A stretch of DNA of 64,000 bases from Mycetocola sp. GTDB lineage: Bacteria > Actinomycetota > Actinomycetes > Actinomycetales > Microbacteriaceae. The stretch spans positions 1 through 64,000 of the forward strand of contig NZ_JAODMP010000072.1 in assembly GCF_025464835.1 (NCBI RefSeq), in the 5' to 3' direction. Within the stretch, counting starts at the first letter, position 1. Each line of letters begins with the position of its first letter. This document shows, piece after piece, positions 3,693 through 29,585 of the stretch. The notes under the pieces were generated by a model that did no database searches, was not told where the DNA came from, and was given only the letters and a program-made list of their open reading frames with translations. Both the position numbers and the translations under genes were made by a program.

Positions 3693-3704
3693 GCGGCCGC
3701 CGTT

Positions 3705-3832
3705 CGGCCGGCCGTATGCGCACAACTCCGCCGATCCGCCGGTGACGGCAACCGGCTCTCGCTCGAAGACGGGGAGCGGGCTTGGTGTCGGGCACGGGGA
3801 GGCGGAGTTGTGCGCAAAAAACCGGCCGGCCG
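3705..3832. repeat. 128-bp inverted-repeat element with 16-bp core arms
   Basis: The arms TGCGCACAACTCCGCC (3717-3732) and its exact reverse complement (3801-3816) flank 68 bp without an ORF. Both are bordered outside by the same palindromic block CGGCCGGCCG (3705-3714 and 3823-3832). The element sits directly after the PAP2-DAGK stop codon. It could act as a terminator or be a REP/MITE-like dispersed repeat. I see only this copy in the window. Confidence 0.7.
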
Positions 3833-3910
3833 GAGTCGCCGGACCGTCGCGTGGGCGTCGAGTCAAGCGTGTTCGCGGCTGGTGAACACCCCACATGCGC
3901 GCTTTGCGCT

Positions 3911-4010
3911 TGCTACACTTGATCGAGCCGGGCCGCATAACCCCGGGCTCCAATTTTTGCCGCCGCGAGCGGCCTTCCGCCGAGAGGCGTTTTGCGGCCC
4001 GGCTTCTTCT
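3911..4010 (+). ncRNA. Candidate structured RNA or attenuator leader with its own promoter
   Basis: An extended -10 promoter, TGCTACACT (3911-3919), precedes a G+C-rich segment that folds well on reading. The outer stem AGCCGGGCCGCA (3926-3937) pairs exactly with TGCGGCCCGGCT (3993-4004), followed by TCTTCTCTTT. Inside lie two hairpins: GCCGC-cgcga-GCGGC (3959-3973) and CGCC-GAGA-GGCG with a GNRA loop (3978-3989). The 5' strand can instead pair with 3942-3950 (GAGCC/GGCTC plus GGG/CCC), which would exclude the outer stem. This is the logic of a terminator/antiterminator switch. The next gene, a cupredoxin, starts about 140 nt on. No known RNA family was recognised. Confidence 0.5.
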
Positions 4011-4014
4011 CTTT

Positions 4015-4078
4015 AACGGGCTTTTGACCTGCGGCGGCTCGGGCTCAACGGGCTTTTGACCTGCGGCGGCTCGGGCGT
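4015..4078 (+). repeat. Tandem duplication of a ~32-bp unit
   Basis: AACGGGCTTTTGACCTGCGG and the following CGGCTCGGGC occur twice in a row (4015-4046 and 4047-4076), diverging only in the last bases. The duplication lies between the attenuator-like RNA and the cupredoxin gene and so would be part of the leader of that transcript. Confidence 0.85.
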
Positions 4079-4151
4079 CGCGAAGTCTGGCAGTTAGCTG
4101 GGATCGGGCATCCGGAGCAAACCGGCACGCCCACCGTGCCGAACCGCCTAC

Positions 4152-29280: not shown

Positions 29281-29585
29281 ATTTTTCTCCTTCACCGGCA
29301 GGTACGTGCCGGACGATCCGAGTGAATGGAACCATGCGTTGCGTGCTGCGCTGCATGCACGCGACCGGGCTTGCGCTCGATCGCGGAATCCCAGTATGGC
29401 AGAAAGCCCCCCAAAAGGTATGCCAGCAATTCGGGTGCATGAGCGCAATCCCGGGGATCCCCCCGATGCTGCTTCCAGCATCCGTTTGGGCATTTCCCAG
29501 AGAGCGCAACTACGATCGGTGGGTGTTGAGTTCGGCAGAGAACAGCTGAAGCCGACGGCCTACTGACCTACCGAAGCGAGGATAA
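29281..29585. other. Divergent intergenic region with a small hairpin near the msiK-type RBS
   Basis: 305 bp without an ORF I can support. A hairpin CCGGCA-ggtacg-TGCCGG (29295-29312) lies directly upstream of the ribosome site of the ABC ATPase gene and could be an operator or RNA structure. CATACT on the minus strand (about 29393-29398) is a weak -10 candidate. Nothing else stands out. Confidence 0.4.

Follow-up and report, generated by a model that had tools for sequence, protein, structure and literature searches.

The window, by which is meant the whole 64,000-nucleotide stretch of Mycetocola sp. DNA that was analysed, carries at positions 3926-4004 of its plus strand a three-way-junction RNA of approximately 80 nt, located just 3' of the extended -10 promoter TGCTACACT. 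The parts of this element are as follows.

3887-3913, plus strand: degenerate remnant of a box for an ECF sigma factor of the SigR/SigH type, with GTGAAC, and with TGC for GTT; weak in the window itself
3911-3919, plus strand: extended -10 promoter (TG-N-TANNNT), identified by sequence, with TANNNT at the same position in relatives
3926-4014, plus strand: predicted small RNA, matched by the covariance model over 3921-4015 (103.8 bits, E 1.8e-19)
3926-3937, plus strand: 5' strand of stem P1, AGCCGGGCCGCA, pairing with 3993-4004; 12 of 12 pairs change on both sides (80 distinct relatives)
3939-3940, plus strand: 5' strand of P1b, pairing with 3990-3991; both pairs covary (A-U to G-C, U-A or C-G)
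3941-3951, plus strand: C-rich core of the junction, CCCCGGGCTCC, which the consensus fold leaves unpaired; CCCC and GG do not vary among 80 distinct sequences from across the class
3959-3973, plus strand: P2 hairpin, GCCGC-CGCGA-GCGGC (3959-3963 with 3969-3973); 100% paired, one pair covarying and three invariant
3978-3989, plus strand: P3 hairpin with a GNRA loop, CGCC-GAGA-GGCG (3978-3981 with 3986-3989); 99% paired and nearly invariant, leaving no covariation by which to test P3
3990-3991, plus strand: 3' strand of P1b, pairing with 3939-3940
3993-4004, plus strand: 3' strand of P1, TGCGGCCCGGCT, pairing with 3926-3937
4005-4014, plus strand: pyrimidine-rich tail TCTTCTCTTT after the GC-rich stem, judged from sequence to be a possible site of intrinsic termination

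The initial annotation had described, from the sequence of the window, a structured RNA with a perfect 12-bp stem, two inner hairpins (one with a GAGA loop) and a pyrimidine-rich edge, and this description is accurate at the level of individual bases; an inverted-repeat search of the window likewise returned the two P1 strands as exact reverse complements. The RNA is predicted to start 6-7 nt after the -10 box and to end at the pyrimidine-rich tail, and in 30 relatives the 10 nt 3' of P1 consist of 43% T and 34% C. Directly 3' of the RNA, at 4015-4076, the window contains a 30-nt sequence (AACGGGCTTTTGACCTGCGGCGGCTCGGGC) perfectly duplicated in tandem, with a period of 32, which is not seen in the compared sequences of close relatives. 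An imperfect inverted repeat with 33-nt arms (GCGCACAACTCCGCC and GGCGGAGTTGTGCGC; 82% complementary, 68 nt apart) is situated at 3700-3833, between a DAG kinase gene and the RNA element, and resembles a repeat-type or terminator element.

When folded alone, the segment reaches -47.4 kcal/mol (z = -2.43), a value equalled by 5 of 200 shuffled sequences and thus moderately unusual, for which reason the case for the element rests on comparison. The consensus fold of the window copy has an energy of -40.2 kcal/mol versus a minimum of -43.7 kcal/mol, and the minimum-energy fold, which counts against the interpretation preferred below, retains P1 while pairing the interior differently. It had also been proposed that the 5' strand of P1 has a second partner at 3942-3950, giving two mutually exclusive folds and hence a switch. 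On paper 3942-3950 does pair with 3925-3932, with a bulged G, yet the resulting conformer was found to be approximately 17 kcal/mol worse than the consensus (-23.3 versus -40.2 kcal/mol), with a pair probability of approximately 2e-8; the alternative pairing exhibits no double changes in the alignment and occurs in full in only 7 of 80 relatives, and the two-state switch was consequently abandoned. It is possible that this pairing plays a transient role during transcription.

Using positions 3895-4090 as a BLAST query, all 59 relatives searched at E ≤ 1 were matched, with E values down to 1e-41, and 30 of these matched at E ≤ 2e-15 over the element, among which CCCCGGGCTCCA is invariant once aligned. 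Alignment A4, comprising 80 distinct sequences, was fitted to the structure of covariance model R1, so that its counts lean towards that structure; in it standard pairs occupy 97.7% of pair cells (81.1% once shuffled), 282 cells are compensatory, i.e. changed on both sides (70.6 after shuffling), and the covariation score is 0.477, compared to 0.153 for shuffled alignments and at most 0.086 for controls in which the structure was slid along the alignment. The MAFFT alignment A1, which was built without reference to structure, agrees, with 27 double-change cells against 6.5, a count reached by none of 500 shuffles. Since all 59 relatives match and compensatory changes lie far above those of shuffles, there is no doubt that the element is conserved beyond chance, and what is conserved is a structure with covariation, as in a stand-alone structured non-coding RNA. 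The covarying pairs in A4 include all 12 of P1 and both of P1b, while one P2 pair alternates between C-G and U-A (59 and 21 of the 80 sequences, respectively). P1, P1b and, in part, P2 are therefore backed by covariation, whereas P3 and the remainder of P2 are backed by conservation only, with CCCC-GG, the P2 segments G-CGC and GAGCG and the P3 segments GCC-G-(G/A)-GGCG being 95-100% conserved in the 80 sequences.

Of 297 genomes from the class, 173 were found by model R1 to carry the element, nearly always as a single copy. With R2, a wider model based on 86 sequences, the element was recovered from 144 of the 150 genomes representing the family Microbacteriaceae, where absences are confined to two genera with genomes of 1.3-1.7 Mb, and from 83 of the 118 representing the class Actinomycetes, while a phylum-wide draw yielded a single weak match outside the class (E 0.0034). 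Among named genomes, a pattern scan returned at least 80 loci, all of them actinobacterial among the matches listed, which include Streptomyces, Kitasatospora, Mycobacterium, Nocardia, Gordonia, Williamsia, Arthrobacter, Rothia, Kocuria, Nocardioides, Geodermatophilus, Modestobacter, Cellulomonas, Brevibacterium, Tessaracoccus and Microbacterium, among others. The genome to which the window belongs has one copy, and one other genome, G134, has three. We conclude that the element belongs to a genuine family of small RNAs of Actinomycetes, apparently uncharacterised and with an unusually broad range. Two further readings of the locus were discarded: a REP-like or terminator repeat was ruled out by the single copy per genome, and an RNA on the minus strand by the score of the reverse strand in the model (26 bits versus 104) and by the location of the promoters on the plus side.

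It may be asked whether the element acts at the level of DNA, as a transcription terminator or repeat element between genes, since it consists of a GC-rich stem followed by a pyrimidine-rich tail and often lies between convergent genes. This we regard as barely credible: besides the single copy per genome, a conserved promoter directly precedes the element, its loops and junction are conserved, pairs at the junction covary around an invariant unpaired stretch, and in Streptomyces a distinct terminator hairpin with a T run lies farther 3'.

Promoter signatures were counted in 228 distinct copies, many of which are related and hence do not represent independent events. A TANNNT -10 box was present at the expected distance in 161 of these 228 copies, compared to 1-4 at non-overlapping control positions, in keeping with the extended -10 promoter of its own that had been attributed to the element. 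At the level of sequence, the RNA is thus preceded by its own promoter at a fixed distance, as for a stand-alone non-coding RNA gene. The motif GGAA(T/C)-N16-19-GTT was found upstream of 101 of the 228 copies, while the nearest control window, which overlaps the true position, contained 8 and five other control windows none; the -10 box and this ECF-type box overlap (GTTACACT, GTTAGCCT). GGAAT/C-N17-19-GTT is the SigH consensus of Corynebacterium and is close to those of SigR of Streptomyces and SigH/SigE of mycobacteria (PMC10012870), and the two boxes and their spacing match those of SigR/SigH regulon promoters. By genus, the box occurs in 17 of 21 Streptomyces, 6 of 7 Microbacterium and 2 of 2 Mycobacterium copies, and also in copies from Gordonia, Williamsia, Geodermatophilus, Nakamurella and Georgenia. 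No copy from Arthrobacter, Rothia or Kitasatospora carries it in the by-genus count of the 228 copies, those of Arthrobacter having -35 boxes of the TTGAC type. Judged by these boxes, the promoter of many lineages is of the SigR/SigH (thiol-oxidative stress) type, although here the candidate regulon member is a non-coding RNA, and the box is missing or degenerate in the three genera just named and in the window. The window copy lacks a recognisable ECF promoter, having GTGAAC and TGC where its relatives have GGAAT/C and GTT, and because of this degeneracy our claim for the window genome is limited to the housekeeping-type extended -10. An ortholog of SigH_actino is encoded elsewhere in that genome (308 bits, cut-off 251.6).

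The neighbourhoods of 39 loci were compared using a home-made ORF caller and BLASTP clusters. In 21 of these loci the next predicted gene has the orientation of the element, and in the remaining 18 it is encoded on the other strand. The initial annotation had placed the element in front of a copper protein gene as an attenuator-like leader; however, the block of cupredoxin, lipoprotein and SigK-RskA genes adjoins it only in the window and in the two closest relatives of the window, L064 and L065 (3 of 39 loci), and is, from the gene orders compared, a local insertion. Elsewhere the element is followed by pstB, by a DUF47-PiT pair, by the gene for a malic enzyme or for a carboxyltransferase, or by others, on either strand, so that no consistent gene set of the kind expected behind a riboswitch or attenuator is found across the 39 loci. 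In a Mycobacteriaceae locus (L095) the element was observed on inspection between a WhiB-like gene and the carboxyltransferase gene.

The gene at 1377-2072 of the window (plus strand) encodes a conserved uncharacterised protein with homologs in 21 loci, usually just upstream of the RNA (Micrococcales), and with neither a Pfam nor an NCBIfam match to the product or its homologs; an opposite-strand tRNA adjoins this gene and its homologs. Many other Micrococcales have the element flanked on one side by a homolog of this gene and on the other by phosphate genes, which we take, from their sequences, to be pstB with partners in convergent orientation or the same-strand DUF47-PiT pair. The repeated position of the RNA beside phosphate-uptake genes (pst or DUF47-PiT) in Micrococcales is an observation for which nothing beyond inherited gene order offers an explanation.

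A cis-acting leader, i.e. a riboswitch or attenuator of the downstream gene (the copper protein gene in the window, DUF47-PiT in some other Micrococcales), might be argued from the four loci in which the DUF47-PiT pair is the next gene on the same strand (L076, L081, L087 and L092) and from the frequency of three-way junctions among riboswitches. Such a function is nevertheless highly improbable, as downstream genes differ between genera, 18 of 39 loci are convergent, the RNA is predicted to start at P1 and the element is nearly always present once per genome, while the alternative conformer that a switch would employ is neither stable nor conserved; neighbours that vary and are often convergent, together with plasmid copies beside unrelated genes, indicate that the element is not a cis leader. 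The resemblance that had been noted to leaders preceding infC in related actinobacteria, with the suggestion of a displaced copy, could not be substantiated, as the 600 bases upstream of the genome's own infC (G000:C36) contain no such element and the genome holds a single copy.

Given that the neighbours change, that the copper gene is a local insertion and that the alternative fold is neither stable nor conserved, we favour, with a probability of about 0.6, a stand-alone small non-coding RNA gene, probably trans-acting and conserved through most of the class Actinomycetes, with binding of a partner as the preferred mode of action. Transcription would begin at the base of P1 from the RNA's own promoter and end just 3' of P1, so that both ends of the RNA would be sealed in a GC-rich stem, and the three-way junction would display an almost invariant face formed jointly by hairpins P2 and P3, the latter capped by a GNRA loop, and by the unpaired CCCCGGG of the junction. 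Acting in trans, the RNA would most likely offer this face to one conserved partner, which would be either a protein or the ribosome, and the level of the RNA may tune the activity of that partner in the manner in which 6S or Ms1 RNA acts on RNA polymerase. Output would be set by the housekeeping promoter and, in many lineages although not evidently in that of the window, would be boosted by a SigR/SigH-type (or SigE-type) ECF sigma factor, with the RNA expected to rise under thiol-oxidative or related stress wherever the ECF box is present.

The RNA could instead be a trans-acting antisense sRNA whose unpaired CCCCGGG(C/T)(C/T)C(C/A) pairs with G-rich ribosome-binding regions of mRNAs, a mode already suggested for the C-rich loops of other sRNAs from actinobacteria, P1, P2 and P3 serving only to stabilise it. 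The C-rich stretch is indeed invariant and unpaired in the consensus and might equally well serve as an antisense seed, and C-rich loops are a reported theme among Streptomyces sRNAs (PMC3765725). We consider this mode rather unlikely, however, because the P2 and P3 stems are conserved in sequence and not merely in pairing, which is more than antisense action alone would need and favours a conserved protein or ribosomal partner, and because CCCGGG is self-complementary and common in GC-rich genomes and would therefore make a poor specific seed.

The element corresponds to no named RNA family, as had been remarked from the sequence of the window: at the element nothing in Rfam 15 reached the gathering threshold, and searches by E-value gave only chance-level matches there, such as a weak full-length alignment to ASpks (RF01782; 14.9 bits, E = 3.7, against a gathering score of 52). 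Rfam did identify an msiK RNA, an actinobacterial cis-regulatory motif, elsewhere in the window (29281-29337, minus strand; RF01747, 61.2 bits). With 6S and Ms1 RNA (Ms1/scr3559, PMC9130861) the element shares the character of a stand-alone structured RNA of an abundant type, broadly distributed in actinobacteria and with no fixed target gene, but its size and fold set it apart, those RNAs being RNA polymerase-binding rods of approximately 180-300 nt with a central bubble and the element a three-way junction of approximately 80 nt with no Rfam match. Similarly, 6C RNA (RF01066) and other sRNAs with C-rich loops are actinobacterial and expose a C-rich stretch, but the element differs in that a long stem closes a junction containing two hairpins, and it is not matched by the 6C model.

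In the Streptomyces locus L098 the element was observed on inspection between a HelD-like helicase gene and a malic enzyme gene, the latter followed by HU and the former by an anti-sigma/sigma pair. These neighbours presumably correspond to SCO2950-SCO2954 on the S. coelicolor map, from which a transcript designated scr2952 was reportedly catalogued by Vockenhuber et al. in 2011. As sRNAs of Streptomyces take their names from the gene on their right flank (PMC3765725), this correspondence leads to scr2952, an independent sRNA which probably occupies the same malic enzyme/HelD-like helicase interval and whose expression has been confirmed and which is conserved in over half of the Streptomyces tested (PMC8388888). 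We consider it probable that the Streptomyces copy is scr2952, in which case the finding would be an actinobacteria-wide extension of a known, uncharacterised sRNA, and the expression of scr2952 would lend the predicted transcript indirect support. Against this, the placement derives from another Streptomyces (L098) and not from S. coelicolor coordinates, and scr2952 is stated to be in Rfam (PMC8388888), yet Rfam 15 gave no match at the L098 interval (E ≤ 10) and none at gathering score in 12 other Streptomyces loci. In that report scr2952 is a Streptomyces transcript, and neither its structure, a class-wide spread nor an ECF-type promoter is mentioned. A search of the open-access literature, the scope of which excludes the likeliest papers (2011 and 2012), returned no match for the core sequence and no description of a class-wide family, its structure, its promoter or a SigR-dependent sRNA; nor is the element described in RNA-motif surveys published in that literature.

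In Microbacteriaceae the family is near-universal. Its covariation is strong and its core invariant, Rfam does not contain it, and in many lineages it bears the promoter signature of the principal thiol-oxidative stress sigma factor. Small RNAs of such class-wide reach are rare, and not many have been described from actinobacteria, a group to which antibiotic producers and mycobacteria belong. We tentatively entertain the wider possibility that it is a core regulatory RNA of Actinomycetes with a reach like that of 6S or Ms1, ancestrally controlled by SigR/SigH and engaging a universal partner through its invariant three-way-junction face. Were this so, the disulphide-stress response of Streptomyces and mycobacteria would have an unnoticed RNA arm, and paralogs with a different second hairpin as well as copies on Rhodococcus plasmids would belong to the core RNA.

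Such a second paralog, of approximately 123 nt, occurs in Streptomyces and some other genomes at six loci (L268-L273), which represent five other members of the class, some with Streptomyces-sized genomes. It retains the C-rich core and P3 but has a longer hairpin in place of P2, from which it follows that P2 is not essential to every member. The ECF-type box is likewise present on the Streptomyces second paralog and on the Rhodococcus plasmid copies, GGAAC-N18-GTT lying upstream of the paralog in L268-L271, with a terminator-like hairpin at its 3' side. Copies were also detected on two contigs labelled as phage or virus, namely L263 (6001-6079 of MT835541.1, an unannotated record labelled 'unverified') and L267 (an IMG/VR contig), both of which could be host DNA. 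Finally, unannotated copies were found on three Rhodococcus megaplasmids, pRZP2, pRB98 and pRHL3 (L264, L265 and L266), that of pRB98 being degraded and situated beside an IS30 transposase gene.
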